A stretch of DNA of 64,000 nucleotides from Actinomycetota bacterium (GTDB taxonomy: Bacteria > Actinomycetota > Acidimicrobiia > IMCC26256 > VFJJ01). Positions within the stretch are counted from its first letter, which is position 1. The number at the start of each line of letters is the position of its first letter. Made by a program: the position numbers and the translations under genes. Of the stretch, positions 54,765-60,569 are shown piece after piece. The notes beneath the pieces are model-generated. The model did no database searches and had not been told where the DNA came from. It saw only the letters and a program-made list of their open reading frames with translations. The DNA is taken from assembly GCA_009886115.1 (NCBI GenBank), contig VFJJ01000011.1, forward strand, positions 91,348 through 155,347, given 5' to 3'.

Positions 54765-55640
54765 ATGGCGTTCTCGACCGACGATGCTTCGCCGCTTCTC
54801 GGCATCCCCGGCTACGAGAACGTCCTCGAGATCGGTCGGGGCGGGTTCGGGATCGTGTACCGGGCCCGCCAAGCGGAGCTCGATCGGGTGGTCGCCGTGA
54901 AGGTGCTCACATCCGTCGTCGACGCCAAGGCGTTGCAGCGTTTCGACCGCGAGCGCAAGGCCCTCGGGGCGTTGTCGGACCACCCCAACATCGTCACGAT
55001 CTTCGAATCGGGCACCACCGCACGCGGCATGCCGTTCCTCACGATGGAGTTCCTGGCCGGCGGATCGTTCGGCGATCGGCTGGCGAGTGCCGGTGCGGTC
55101 GATTGGCCGAGCGTCGTCGCCATGGCGGTCTTGGCGCCAGGGCCCCCGCTTCCGCCGCCGGTAGCCACCACGTCACCCGCGACGAGCACGACGCTCGCTC
55201 CGGTGCTCATGCCCGACGTCATCGGCCTCAGCCAAGCGGCGGCCCGTTCAGCAGTCACCGACCTCCAGCGCAGCTTCAAGCCGCAGGGCTACTTCGCGTA
55301 CACCGAGAGCCTGAAGTGCAACGGCAACACCGATCCCAGCCTGTTCGGCACGGTGCACGCCCAGAGCCCTCCGGCCGGGACTGCCATGTTCTTCCAGCAG
55401 CCGGCCAGCATCGACATCTACGAGACCTGCACGACGGTCCCCAACCTCCTCGGTGCCGACCGGAACTCGCAGGCACCGGCGCTCGTGCTCCAAGCTGCCC
55501 TCCAGGCCACGTACACGATGGGCGCTTGTCAATCCGGTGTCGGATCGAACGTCGTCATCGCCCAGGATCTGGCCGATGGATCGATCGTCAAGACCAACTC
55601 GATCGTCAGGGTCACCTTCACTCCAGCGAGTTGCCCGTAG
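54765..55640 (+). CDS. PASTA-type Ser/Thr kinase with catalytic core deleted
   Basis: The 291-residue product starts as a normal kinase: EIGRGGFGIVYRARQAELDRVVAVKVL (split glycine loop and Lys), the C-helix RERKALGALSDHPNIV, and MEFLAGGSFGDRLAS. After WPSVVAMAV the sequence jumps directly to VLAPGPPLPPPVATTSPATS, an extracytoplasmic linker, then two PASTA-like units: VLMPDVIGLSQAAARSAV and TTVPNLLGADRNSQAPAL. HRD, DFG, APE and the membrane helix are all absent, though the frame is intact. It cannot be an active or membrane-anchored kinase. An in-frame deletion of about 700-900 bases is the simplest cause. AGGAGG before ATG 54765 is excellent. Confidence 0.88.
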   Translation: MAFSTDDASPLLGIPGYENVLEIGRGGFGIVYRARQAELDRVVAVKVLTSVVDAKALQRFDRERKALGALSDHPNIVTIFESGTTARGMPFLTMEFLAGGSFGDRLASAGAVDWPSVVAMAVLAPGPPLPPPVATTSPATSTTLAPVLMPDVIGLSQAAARSAVTDLQRSFKPQGYFAYTESLKCNGNTDPSLFGTVHAQSPPAGTAMFFQQPASIDIYETCTTVPNLLGADRNSQAPALVLQAALQATYTMGACQSGVGSNVVIAQDLADGSIVKTNSIVRVTFTPASCP

Positions 55641-57304
55641 TGAGCGTTTCTCGCCACCAGCCTGTGACGATCCCGGACGTGGTGCGCGACGCCGCCCGCC
55701 GTTGGCCCGACGGTGAGGCGCTCGTCGTGGGGGAGCGGCGCTGGACCTTCACCGAGCTCGCCGGCGAGGTCGACCGGCATGCGGCGACGCTCGTGCGCGA
55801 CGGCATCTCGACGGGTGATCGTGTCGCTCTCTGGGCGCCGAGCTCGGCCGAGTGGATCATCACCGCGCTCGGTGTGCTCGCAGCCGGCGCCACGGTCGTG
55901 CCGCTCAACACGCGCTACAAGGGGGTCGAGGCGACCGACATCCTGAACCGGTCGCGAGCCAGGATCCTGTTCACCAGCATGGGCTTTCTCGGTCTCGACT
56001 TCCCGCAGGCCCTGGCCGACACCGGCATCGCGCTCCCGACGCTCGAGCGCATGGTGCTCCTCGGCGTCGACGCCATGGCGGTCTTCGACACGACGGTGTC
56101 GGGAGCGCTCCCGAACGTGGGGCCCGACGACATCAGCCATGTCCAGTACACCAGCGGCACCACCGGCGCTCCGAAGGGGGCGATGCTGCGCCATCGGGCG
56201 ATGGTCGACACGACCCGCATCTGGACCGACGCCGTCGGCCTCGGTCCCGGCGATCGCTACCTCATCTCGAGCCCGTTCTTCCACATTGCCGGGCACAAGA
56301 CGGGCATCCTGGCGTGCATCACCGCCGGGGCGACCATGGTGCCGGTGCCGCTCTTCGACGCCGACACCGCCCTCGAGCTCATCGAGCGCGAGCGGATCAC
56401 CGTGATGCAGGGGCCGCCGACGATCTTCCATTCGCTGCTCGCCCATCCCGATCGCGGTCGGTTCGATCTCAAAAGCCTGCGGCTGTGCGTGACGGGCGCC
56501 GCCACCGTGCCTGTCGAGCTGATCCGACGCATCCGTGCCGAGCTGCCCTTCGAGAGCGTGATCACGAGCTACGGGCTCACCGAGACGACAGGCGTCGCCA
56601 CGATCTGCTCCGCCGACGATCCGCCGGAGGTCATCGCCCACACCTCGGGGCGGCCCATCCCCGGTGTCGAGGTGCGCATAGCAGCGATGGACCCCACTCG
56701 AGTCGACGGGCCCCGTACCGGCACCGGCCGCGTCGACGGGCCCAGCTCCGGCGACGCCGAGCGCACCGGTGAGATCCTGGTGCGGGGCATCGGGACCATG
56801 GCGGGCTACCTCGACGATCCCGCGGGTACGGCCGAGACCATCGACACCGAGGGTTGGGTCCACACCGGCGACGTGGGCCGCCTCGACCAGCAGGGCAACC
56901 TGGTGATCACCGATCGGCTCAAGGACATGGTGATCGTCGGCGGGTTCAACGTGTACCCGGCCGAGGTCGAGAACCTGATGCTGGCCCACCCGGCGCTGGC
57001 CCAGGTGGCGGTCGTCGGTGTCGCCGACGAGCGTCTGGGTGAGGTCACCGTGGCGTACGCGGTGCTGCGCTCCGACGGTGTCGGCGGTGTCGACGGTGCC
57101 GACGACCCGGGGGGTCCGGAGGGTCCGAGCTCGACGGCGGAGGAGCTCGTGGCGTGGTGCCGAGCGCACATGGCGAACTTCAAGGCTCCCCGCCAGGTCG
57201 TGCTGGTCGAGGGCCTGCCCACCAACGCTGCCGGCAAGGTCGACAAGCTGGTCCTGCGTGAACGAGCGCGGCGAGGCACCGCGCCGGGCAGAATGCCGTC
57301 ATGA
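55640..57304 (+). CDS. Acyl-CoA synthetase (AMP-forming)
   Basis: The 554-residue ligase activates a carboxylic acid to its CoA ester. Core motifs are VQYTSGTTGAPKGAMLRHRA (P-loop), SSPFFHIAGHK, ITSYGLTETTGVA, WVHTGDVGRLDQQGNLVITDRLKDMVIVGG (split for length) and the catalytic Lys in LPTNAAGKVDKLVLRE. It resembles FadD3/FadD17-like actinobacterial enzymes. Two low-complexity insertions (TRVDGPRTGTGRVDGPSSG and VGGVDGADDPGGPEG) occur at surface loops. GTG 55640 overlaps the kinase stop. It is followed by an overlapping selenoprotein gene. Confidence 0.92.
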   Translation: MSVSRHQPVTIPDVVRDAARRWPDGEALVVGERRWTFTELAGEVDRHAATLVRDGISTGDRVALWAPSSAEWIITALGVLAAGATVVPLNTRYKGVEATDILNRSRARILFTSMGFLGLDFPQALADTGIALPTLERMVLLGVDAMAVFDTTVSGALPNVGPDDISHVQYTSGTTGAPKGAMLRHRAMVDTTRIWTDAVGLGPGDRYLISSPFFHIAGHKTGILACITAGATMVPVPLFDADTALELIERERITVMQGPPTIFHSLLAHPDRGRFDLKSLRLCVTGAATVPVELIRRIRAELPFESVITSYGLTETTGVATICSADDPPEVIAHTSGRPIPGVEVRIAAMDPTRVDGPRTGTGRVDGPSSGDAERTGEILVRGIGTMAGYLDDPAGTAETIDTEGWVHTGDVGRLDQQGNLVITDRLKDMVIVGGFNVYPAEVENLMLAHPALAQVAVVGVADERLGEVTVAYAVLRSDGVGGVDGADDPGGPEGPSSTAEELVAWCRAHMANFKAPRQVVLVEGLPTNAAGKVDKLVLRERARRGTAPGRMPS

Positions 57305-59013
57305 CCCGACTGACGATCGTCAACCCCATCGCCCGGCCCCTCGCTTCGACCCAGGAAGCCGAGCGCTACGAGCCCGCACCCCGCCCGGGCACCCTCGATG
57401 GCCTCACCGTCGGACTGTTCTGGAACGGCAAGCCCCTGGGCGACATCGGGCTCGCTCGCACCCGCGAGAACCTCGAGCGGCTCTACACCGGGCTGCGGTT
57501 CGTCGACGTGTTCGGGGCCAAGGGCGGGCTCACCCGCTTCGCCAGCCCCGAGCAGCTCGACCTCATGGAAGCCGAGTGCGACGTCGTGGTGGGTGCCACC
57601 GCCGATTGAGGCGCGTGCACCTCGTGGCTCATGCGTGACATGAGCGCGCTGGAACGCCGAGGCGTTCCCACCGTTGCCTGGACGTCGTCGGAGTTCGTCG
57701 AGGACGCCCATTGGAGCTCGAACGTCTTCGGCGTCCCCGAGCTGCCCATCGCCGAGGTCACCCAACCCTTCACCAACCGCGACCCGGCGACCATTAACGC
57801 CATGGTCGACGGGGCCATGAACCAGGTGCTCGACGCGCTCACCCGGGGACGTGAGCGGCTCACCGCCGTGCCTGTCTTCCAACACGTGAACCTGGTCGAG
57901 GATCCCGTGTTGCACTACGACGGCGACGACCTGCTCGGCGCCTGGGACCGGATGAACGTCGAGTTCATCGCGGCGGGCTGGTCCGACGGGTTGCCGCTCG
58001 TCGCCCCGACACCCGAGAAGGTCGCCGCCATGGTCGCGGGGAGCGGGCGGGCCGCCGACGACCTGGTCGGGATCTTCGCGCCGGGCGACGGCATCGGGAC
58101 GGTCGAGAAGATCGCGGCAAACGCGGTGATGGCCGGCGCCAGCCCGACCCACATGCCGGTGATCCTGGCGATGATGGACTGCGTTCTCGATCCCACGATC
58201 GGCTTGCGCACCTGGGCCATGTCGACCGGTCCGCAAGCGCCCGTGGTGTTGGTGAGCGGACCGTACGCCGAGGCGATCGGGATGAACTCCGGCATCTGCG
58301 CGCTCGGCCCGGGCTCGATCTCGCACGTCAACGTGGTGATCGGGCGCACGCTCCGCCTCGTGATGATGAACGTCGGCCATTCCTATCCCGGCGTCTCCGA
58401 CATGGACACCATCGGGAACTCCATGAAGTTCTCGGCCTGCGTCGCCGAGAACGAAGCCCGCAACCCCTGGGAGCCGTGGCGGGTGCAACAGGGCTTCTCA
58501 GCGGAGGCGACGACCGTCACGGTCAACGTGCCCTACGGCGTCTGCGAGCTGTTCGACTTCCAGAACTGGGAGCCCGACAAGCTCGTCGAGAACTTCGCCA
58601 CCGTGGCCTCCAACGCCTGTGCCACACCCAGCAACGGCGTCTGGCTGGTGAAGACGCCGGCCGACCTGTCGGCGGGGTACCCGTTCAGTGGCGACTTCCA
58701 CAACCTCATCCTCATGTGCCCTGAGCACGCCGAGGCCTTCGCTGTGGGGGGCTGGTCGCCCACCGACATCGCCGAGGGCCTGTGGGAGCGGGCGCGCCTG
58801 CCGTTCCGGGTGCTCATGCTCAACCAGCCCATGAAGAGCTTCGAGGTGTCGCACCCCGAGCTGTTGCACCTGATCGACGAGCCCGAGACGATGCTGCCGG
58901 TGTGCCCGACGGCCAAGGCGTATCAGGTGTTCGTGGTCGGCGCCGATGCCGGACGGTCACTGTTCTTCCACGGCGGCACGATCTCGGTCACCAAGGAGGT
59001 CCGCCTGCCGTGA
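57301..59013 (+). CDS. UGSC-family selenoprotein, in-frame TGA read as Sec103
   Basis: The gene is one reading frame of 570 residues interrupted by TGA at 57607-57609. Before it is VGLFWNGKPLGDIGLARTRE and DVVVGATAD; directly after it is GACTSWLMRDMSALERRGVP. The join ATAD-U-GACTSW matches the U-G-S-C redox motif that names the UGSC family. A 7-bp hairpin lies 18 bases after the TGA. Residues 1-185 are the UGSC domain. Residues 205-570 are a second domain (EFIAAGWSDGLPLVAPTPEK; GTVEKIAANAVMAGASPTHM; ISHVNVVIGRTLRLVMMNVG) found with it but of unknown role. A Sec-Cys pair suggests redox or peroxidase-like chemistry. It overlaps the synthetase by four bases and the thioesterase by one. Selenocysteine machinery must be elsewhere. 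Confidence 0.88.
57610..57645 (+). promoter_or_regulatory. Putative bacterial SECIS hairpin
   Basis: GCTCATG (57627-57633) and CATGAGC (57639-57645) form seven perfect pairs around CGTGA. The G in the second loop position lies 26 bases after the TGA, inside the 16-37 range reported for bacterial SECIS loops. An outer GCGCG/CGCGC pairing can partly extend the stem. It would bind SelB and direct selenocysteine insertion. Confidence 0.65.
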
Positions 59014-59840
59014 TGGTGGTCGCCGCCGACGGTGACACCCGACGCGGGCCGTTCGTCTTCTCTGTCGAGCAGCGGTGGTGCACCGGCGATCGTCTCTTCG
59101 GCGGCGTCGCGTTCGGTGCCGCTCTGGCCGCGCTCGAGCTCGCCGTCGAACGGCCCACCATCTCGGCGGCAGCCCAGTTCGTGAACACCGGCCGCCTGGG
59201 TGAACCCCTGACGATCGCCACCGAGGTGCTCGTCGCCGGGACGGGCGCGACCCAAGCCCGGGCCAGCGCGGTGCAGGGGTCGGTCACCGTGGCGCTGGTC
59301 TCGGCGACCCTCGGCGCGCTGGGCCCTTCCGGGTCGGTCGACCCGCCCGACCCGCCCGACCCGCCCGACCCGCCCGACCCGGGAGCAACCTGGGGCGCCG
59401 GGGAACGCTCCCGTGGCGCCCCGGTGGTCGCCAACCCGGAGCAGTGCAGGCCGCGCGAGTACCAGAACCCGCTTGCCGGCTCCATCACCGAGACGCTCGA
59501 CGTGCGGGTGGCCGGGGTGACCCCGTCCACCGTGGTGCTGTGGGCCCGATGGGTCGAGGCCACCGCGTCGTCCGGACCGGCCTCGGCGCTGGCCCTCCTC
59601 AGCGACCATGTGCCGTATGGGGTTCGCCTGGTTCAGGGCCCCGAGTTGTACGGGGTGAGCCTCGACGCGACGCTGCGGATGCTGCCGGCGGCTGCGGCGT
59701 GGGAACCGTCGGCCTGGGTGCTGCTCGAGATCACCTACGACATGCTCGGGGCGTACGGCCACGGCACCGTGTGGCTCTGGGACCTCGACGGACGACCGCT
59801 GGCGATCTCCACCCAGACCGTCCGCATCCGCCACTGGTAG
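59013..59840 (+). CDS. Acyl-CoA thioesterase, TesB-like double hot-dog
   Basis: The 275-residue protein has the first hot-dog opening FVFSVEQRWCTGDRLFGGVAFGAALAALE, where FGG is the family signature, then AAAQFVNTGRLGEPLTIATEVL. The second half includes VRVAGVTPSTVVLWARWVEA and AWVLLEITYDMLGAYGHGTVWLWD, typical of TesB-type ends. A (DPP)4-DPG run from a 9-nt repeat links the two halves. The ATG at 59013 overlaps the selenoprotein stop (TGATG); a GTG at 59010 is an alternative, and AGGAGG lies just upstream. Confidence 0.82.
   Translation: MVVAADGDTRRGPFVFSVEQRWCTGDRLFGGVAFGAALAALELAVERPTISAAAQFVNTGRLGEPLTIATEVLVAGTGATQARASAVQGSVTVALVSATLGALGPSGSVDPPDPPDPPDPPDPGATWGAGERSRGAPVVANPEQCRPREYQNPLAGSITETLDVRVAGVTPSTVVLWARWVEATASSGPASALALLSDHVPYGVRLVQGPELYGVSLDATLRMLPAAAAWEPSAWVLLEITYDMLGAYGHGTVWLWDLDGRPLAISTQTVRIRHW
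59340..59384 (+). repeat. 9-nt repeat encoding (DPP)n
   Basis: Five units of GAC-CCG-CCC (the last is GAC-CCG-GGA) encode DPPDPPDPPDPPDPG inside the thioesterase, at the linker between its two domains. Confidence 0.9.
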
Positions 59841-59891: not shown

Positions 59892-60347
59892 TCAGACGTC
59901 GAACTCGTTCGGGTCGATGCCGCAGGCGAAGCACGCCTCACGCACCGCCTTCTTTTCGTGGTCGTCGAAGTTGCCGTCGGCCGCACCGATGATGATGCCG
60001 ATCTGAATGACCGCTCGGGCCTGATCGGGCTTCTTCTTCAACTTGCCGATGGCTTGGAGAACGTCGATCTTGCCGAAGTCGTAGTCGCGTTCGAGCTTCA
60101 GGCAGTAGTCGGCGAACTTCGTTCGGAGCTCGTCGGGCGGGAAGATGGCGAGGATCTCGTTCGACGCGATGTACGAGGCGGTCTTCTGCCGCTCTGACGG
60201 GTCGATTGAGCCGTCGGCCGCAGCGACCAGCGCGCACATGGCCATGGAAGCGTCCGAGAAGTTGCCGTTCTTGAACGTGTGGGCTTTGGTCTTGAGCTGA
60301 GCGCTCATCTCGCCGCTCTTTGTCTTCAACTGGTCCCAAATCGGCAC
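59892..60347 (-). CDS. terB: TerB-like tellurite-resistance protein
   Basis: The 151-residue protein equals E. coli TerB in length. It has the two TerB helices: SMAMCALVAAADGSIDPSERQK and VIQIGIIIGAADGNFDDHEKKAVREACFACG, each with the acidic AADG loop thought to bind a metal ion. LKTKSGEMSAQLKTKAH forms the N-terminal helix. Lysine-rich use contrasts with neighbours. GTG 60347 has AGGAG at good distance. TerB proteins take part in stress and chemical resistance complexes; no TerC, TerD or other ter gene is in the window, so its job here is unclear. Confidence 0.88.
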   Translation of the reverse strand: MPIWDQLKTKSGEMSAQLKTKAHTFKNGNFSDASMAMCALVAAADGSIDPSERQKTASYIASNEILAIFPPDELRTKFADYCLKLERDYDFGKIDVLQAIGKLKKKPDQARAVIQIGIIIGAADGNFDDHEKKAVREACFACGIDPNEFDV

Positions 60348-60569
60348 GTATTTCTCCTTGAGCGAGCGAGGGCCTGAGCAACGCAGCGAGAACTCTCGGT
60401 ATCCGTCGAGCCATGTCCTGTGGACATCTGCACCTGCAGCGGATTGATCGGATCGCCGAGTCAACGGGGTGGCCCGACATTAGCAGTCGATCACCCCGGT
60501 ACCCCGGTGTCGACGACGACCGGACGCAACCGCCGCACCGGCGGCGGCGTCGACGGTTCGCGACGGCGC

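Follow-up and report, generated by a model that had tools for sequence, protein, structure and literature searches.

In E. coli formate dehydrogenase (fdhF), SelB binds the loop of a hairpin and brings Sec-tRNA to the UGA. The model of the bacterial SECIS used by bSECISearch (bSECIS, summarized in PMC13188914) has a loop of 3–9 nt with a G within its first two positions, an upper stem of 4–16 bp, a UGA-to-loop spacing of 16–37 nt, and an MFE of −7.5 kcal/mol or lower. UGSC selenoproteins and a UGSC/Unknown_1 fusion were described by Zhang and Gladyshev 2008 (PMC2398784); they have a UxxC motif, occur mostly as Sec forms, and belong to the most frequent environmental selenoproteins (PMC2398784). 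UGSC selenoproteins that have UAG instead of UGA have been described in Geodermatophilaceae (PMC5330540). The protein encoded in the window, the whole 64,000-nucleotide stretch of DNA that was analyzed, is like those of PMC2398784 in its motif, its Sec form, and its fusion to a second conserved domain. The kind of selenoprotein is already known, and the window gene is a further member of the UGSC family.

The gene is a single frame interrupted by a TGA, with homology on both flanks (Table 1). The motif at the TGA is U-G-A-C (residues 103–106), which is the UxxC of the family. The PF24696 profile scored 121 bits against a gathering cut-off of 25, and the match spans both sides of the TGA. The U/C-G-x-C motif is present, and G104 and C106 are invariant in an alignment of seven fusion orthologues. 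The UGSC equivalog model of NCBIfam (NF041046) gave the window protein 105.4 bits, below the cut-off of 125, and only one of the four other fusion members scored (L150, 126 bits) reaches it; the fused branch is therefore not filed under this equivalog. The genome contains a tRNA-Sec with a UCA anticodon (66 bits), SelA (459 bits), SelB (294–320 bits), and SelD (398 bits), and SelA, SelB, and tRNA-Sec are all on contig C73. On this gene content the genome is predicted to be equipped to decode Sec.

Table 1. Features of the selenoprotein locus in the window, with the related loci elsewhere in the genome.
Feature	Position	Strand	Basis or remark
AMP-binding acyl-CoA ligase gene, upstream	55640–57304	+	PF00501, E 6e-86; ORF span, 55640 is not a mapped start
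UGSC fusion selenoprotein gene (predicted)	57301–59013	+	570 aa with U103; single frame interrupted by TGA
UGSC domain (Pfam PF24696), residues 10–181	57328–57843	+	E 7e-35
In-frame TGA, predicted to be read as Sec, residue 103	57607–57609	+	frame and homology on both flanks
Candidate SECIS hairpin with three lower-stem pairs	57624–57649	+	folding; 57624–57626 pair with 57647–57649, G57646 bulged
Candidate bacterial SECIS hairpin, upper stem and loop	57627–57645	+	GCTCATG (57627–57633), loop CGTGA (57634–57638), CATGAGC (57639–57645); 7 bp, all Watson-Crick
Companion domain, about 370 aa, fused to the UGSC domain	57907–59010	+	separate neighboring ORF at the seven other UGSC loci of the genome
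Acyl-CoA thioesterase-like gene, downstream	59013–59840	+	PF13622, PF20789
Other UGSC loci of the genome (G000)	contigs C1, C44, C101 (two), C149, C154, C179		

A first, sequence-only reading of this DNA had described a hairpin of seven perfect pairs with the loop CGTGA downstream of the TGA and had placed the loop G 26 nt after it. The pairing is exact in the sequence and the position of the G is confirmed. The stem starts 17 nt past the TGA, the loop starts after 24 nt (57610–57633), and nucleotide 26 is G57635. That reading also held that the distance and the loop fit published rules for the bacterial SECIS. The element agrees with all four constraints of the bSECIS model (PMC13188914), having a loop of 5 nt with G at position 2 followed by U, a stem of 7 bp, a spacing of 24 nt, and an MFE of −13.4 kcal/mol, and it breaks no rule of that model; what differs is only its register, compared with the other members of its gene family. 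The MFE is that of a 29-nt element (57622–57650) and corresponds to a z of −2.2. The lower stem differs between relatives. In an 86-nt context the hairpin is retained in the fold, but the stability equals that of shuffled sequences (z 0.01); a different stable structure, which the first reading had named as evidence against itself, was not obtained.

The first reading had further called a perfect stem at this place more than chance would usually give, and this holds only mildly. An equally good hairpin by the same rules follows 247 of the 18,230 in-frame codon positions in the open reading frames of the window (1.4%), and random synonymous codings of the same peptide give a perfect stem in 6.6% of cases, or in 15% when G-U pairs are allowed. 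The evidence from the single sequence is weak, and it is the comparison with homologues that decides.

Nine distinct TGA genes were compared, the window gene together with L145, L153, L154, L155, L156, L183, L184, and L185, which are 56–71% identical. The sources of the orthologues are a Myxococcota/deltaproteobacterial MAG and genomes of the class to which a Chloroflexi MAG belongs; the relatives are mostly MAGs and several pairs come from one genome, so the independence of the eight is limited. All nine carry the stem at +18 to +36 with an identical CGTGA loop, and 63 of 63 stem-pair cells are standard, with three pairs that vary only to G-U forms. Three orthologues (L146, L147, and L148) have a Cys codon at the site, which in each lies within one unbroken frame. 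None of them has a stem of at least 6 pairs anywhere in the allowed range, although a weakened partial stem remains in L146. The hairpin is thus kept with the TGA and lost with the Cys codon, the two outcomes that the first reading had proposed as its check.

The synonymous sites give the same contrast. Across the TGA set, the seven codons of the hairpin have a synonymous identity of 0.94, which is the top value among 374 seven-codon segments of a gene that averages 0.52. The loop Arg is CGT in 9/9 TGA genes, and CGT makes up 15% of the Arg codons in the window; in the Cys genes the position is CGG in two and a His codon in the third. These data show purifying selection on the synonymous sites of the stem and loop, and the comparison points to selection on the hairpin itself, beyond the TGA alone. 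Two-sided compensatory changes were not found within the clade, where the stem changes are G-U only, because the clade is narrow and its codons are constrained. The strength of the case is the contrast between TGA and Cys genes together with the synonymous conservation, not compensatory change in the clade. On these sequence comparisons it is very highly probable that the hairpin is a functional bacterial SECIS that directs Sec at UGA 57607–57609 and that it moved to 24 nt in the ancestor of the clade.

The alternatives are all improbable. The best of them accepts the TGA as Sec and takes the hairpin as a by-product of the conserved peptide W-L-M-R-D-M-S, with the true SECIS located elsewhere or unneeded. 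The recoding frequencies given above speak for it in that the peptide alone favors some pairing. Against it, the Leu, Arg, Asp, and Ser codons of the stem and loop show almost no synonymous variation across the TGA genes, Cys orthologues with close peptides (WLIREMA and WLVRDMA) have no stem, and the window clade has no alternative stem at the place where other UGSC genes carry theirs. We regard this explanation as very unlikely.

Slightly less likely still is that the TGA is a true stop and separates two coupled genes, one for an N-terminal UGSC fragment of 102 aa and one for a protein of 460 aa with its start at ATG 57631, within the hairpin. Conventional gene finding would give these two genes (open reading frames 57301–57609 and 57631–59013), and the TGA orthologues have ATG or GTG as the codon at 57631; outside the clade, the matching codon is mostly no start codon. 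The split would fall between the conserved U and C of the UGSC domain, at a site that is Cys in an unbroken frame in three orthologues, and it is precisely the Cys orthologues that have lost the hairpin. The complete Sec machinery of the genome also argues against a true stop. With the TGA read as a Sec codon, the locus holds one selenoprotein gene in place of the two that annotation would give. A sequencing error or a pseudogene, the TGA being absent from the living genome or the gene dead, is a negligible prospect even for a draft genome of 224 contigs, since the same-codon TGA and the same hairpin occur in eight orthologues from other assemblies and the remainder of frame 57301–59013 is open.

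The frame, the family, the machinery genes, the retention of the hairpin in UGA genes and its loss in Cys genes, and the synonymous-site selection were computed here, and SelB binding, decoding, and selenylsulfide/thiol chemistry are carried over from knowledge of E. coli fdhF and SelB. By that analogy, SelB-GTP-Sec-tRNA(Sec) would be held on the hairpin loop when the ribosome meets UGA 57607–57609. Sec would be delivered without termination. The product would be a UGSC-family protein of 570 aa that has Sec103 in the UxxC redox motif and the companion domain in frame. Selenylsulfide/thiol chemistry may then take place at UxxC.

The position of the hairpin sets the window clade apart from the rest of the family. 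In 58 genomes of the order there are 96 UGSC domains, and the aligned site is TGA in 72 and a Cys codon in 24. The loop starts 19 nt after the UGA in 60 of the 72 TGA genes, and at 18–19 nt in 40 of 54 fusion TGA genes. These other SECIS elements, in the same genome and across the order, are also in-frame hairpins, of 6–9 bp, that lie downstream of the homologous UGA and overlap the same codons. Their loops are, for example, GTG, GTT, or CTTGT and start at 18–19 nt, whereas the loop of the window clade is CGTGA and starts at 24 nt. Most UGSC genes carry theirs 5–6 nt closer to the UGA, which the first reading could not see, and a search of all UGSC genes for the hairpin at the place it has in the window clade therefore fails.

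The older position was analyzed by covariation in 29 sequences, the sister TGA group and other relatives, in which the hairpin lies 6 nt upstream of its place in the window clade. In this set 94% of cells are paired and 5 of 7 pairs have two-sided changes, and none of 500 shuffles was as good. The older position is not paired in the window clade (51% of cells), and the new position is largely unpaired in the other relatives (58% of cells). A maximum-likelihood tree places the nine TGA and three Cys genes in one clade (support 100/100) that adjoins L157–L159, which have the old hairpin; in a smaller set, the clade is retained when the Sec and hairpin codons are masked. Within the clade, L146 with L147 and L148 alone are two separate Sec-to-Cys replacements. 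The simplest history is a single relocation of the SECIS on the stem of the clade followed by these two replacements, both accompanied by hairpin loss. All three Cys genes lie in genomes that still score above the cut-off for tRNA-Sec, which means that an absence of this tRNA does not explain the losses.

It is likely that the SECIS moved 5–6 nt in a single ancestor, from a loop start at 18–19 nt to one at 24 nt after the UGA, while the UGA, the frame, and most of the peptide were kept and the new loop became fixed as CGUGA. The sister group has the codons CTT GTC CAC GAC ATG and L155 has CTT GTG CGT GAC ATG AGC. A His-to-Arg change would destroy the old 3′ arm and an altered Val codon would close the new loop, which is a likely path. 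Because the paralogous UGSC genes of this genome differ in SECIS position, its SelB would have to serve two registers and two loop types. A limited literature search turned up no relevant report of a change in the position of a bacterial SECIS, and the lineage-specific shift may be new. The shift and the independent Sec-to-Cys losses would be a natural experiment on the tolerance of SelB for hairpin position and loop sequence. If the history is correct, the clade is a natural series of old position, new position, and two later Cys losses in which the requirements of SelB can be tested.

All eight UGSC loci of the genome have an in-frame TGA, and each is accompanied by a single copy of the companion domain. 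The window copy is the only fused one and the only one with a SECIS loop at 24 nt; six of the seven others have a stem of at least 6 pairs with the loop at 19 nt. The TGA paralogue L027 (G000:C101:28627–29151) forms a stem of no more than 4 bp at the usual place, and its SECIS is weak or located elsewhere. A non-fused Cys paralogue in another genome, L034 (G042:C45:30920–31429), has an intact hairpin at the old position, GTCGTGGA GCG TCCACGAC. This perhaps reflects a recent Sec-to-Cys change or codon constraint, and it means that a hairpin alone is no proof of Sec. Viral contigs contained no relative, and relatives in plasmid sequences reach 34% identity at best.

The companion domain had no match in a Pfam search at E values up to 10 and belongs to no NCBIfam family. 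It has conserved cysteines, of which C380 and C473 are invariant in seven orthologues. In a fold search with this domain, Foldseek put class I fumarate hydratase at the top (E 5e-4). A second aligner reached no more than Z 4.3, covering about 200 residues at 6 Å, and this assignment was rejected. A sequence search against solved structures returned chance-level matches only (E 0.52 and 0.11). The AlphaFold model of the UGSC domain has a mean pLDDT of 73 and was built on seven sequences. Its fold matches were flavodoxin-like, B12-binding, and receiver domains (Z up to 11.2), with no thioredoxin among the matches listed. The model provisionally suggests a flavodoxin-like/Rossmann-type sandwich in which Sec sits where a helix begins, in contrast to the Trx-like fold suggested for UGSC in PMC2398784. 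GrdB/PrdB-type reductases have the UxxC motif in common with UGSC, as PMC2398784 lists it for PrdB. Two fusion members, L150 (residues 82–158, E 0.024) and L145 (residues 83–127, E 0.09), weakly resemble glycine reductase selenoprotein B across the Sec stretch. The best score against the GrdB profile (TIGR01917) was 13.6 bits (E 0.024) compared to a cut-off of 602, and it was found in L150 rather than in the window protein. A distant link of UGSC to these reductases is possible on sequence grounds, as a lead and not as membership.

The stop of the acyl-CoA ligase gene overlaps the ATG of the UGSC gene at 57301 (57301–57304), and the ATG of the thioesterase gene overlaps the UGSC stop (59011–59015). 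These overlaps suggest that the three genes (55640–59840) form one operon. Genes for an acyl-CoA dehydrogenase, a MaoC hydratase, and a P450 are nearby. Based on the overlapping and nearby genes, a reasonable guess is that the selenoprotein has a putative role as a redox step in the degradation of an acyl-CoA or similar compound. The gene neighborhoods of L145 and L147 were compared and no shared partner was found. A TerB-domain gene (tellurite resistance family; 59895–60464, minus strand) adjoins the selenoprotein operon, and a selenium/tellurium link through this gene is possible.
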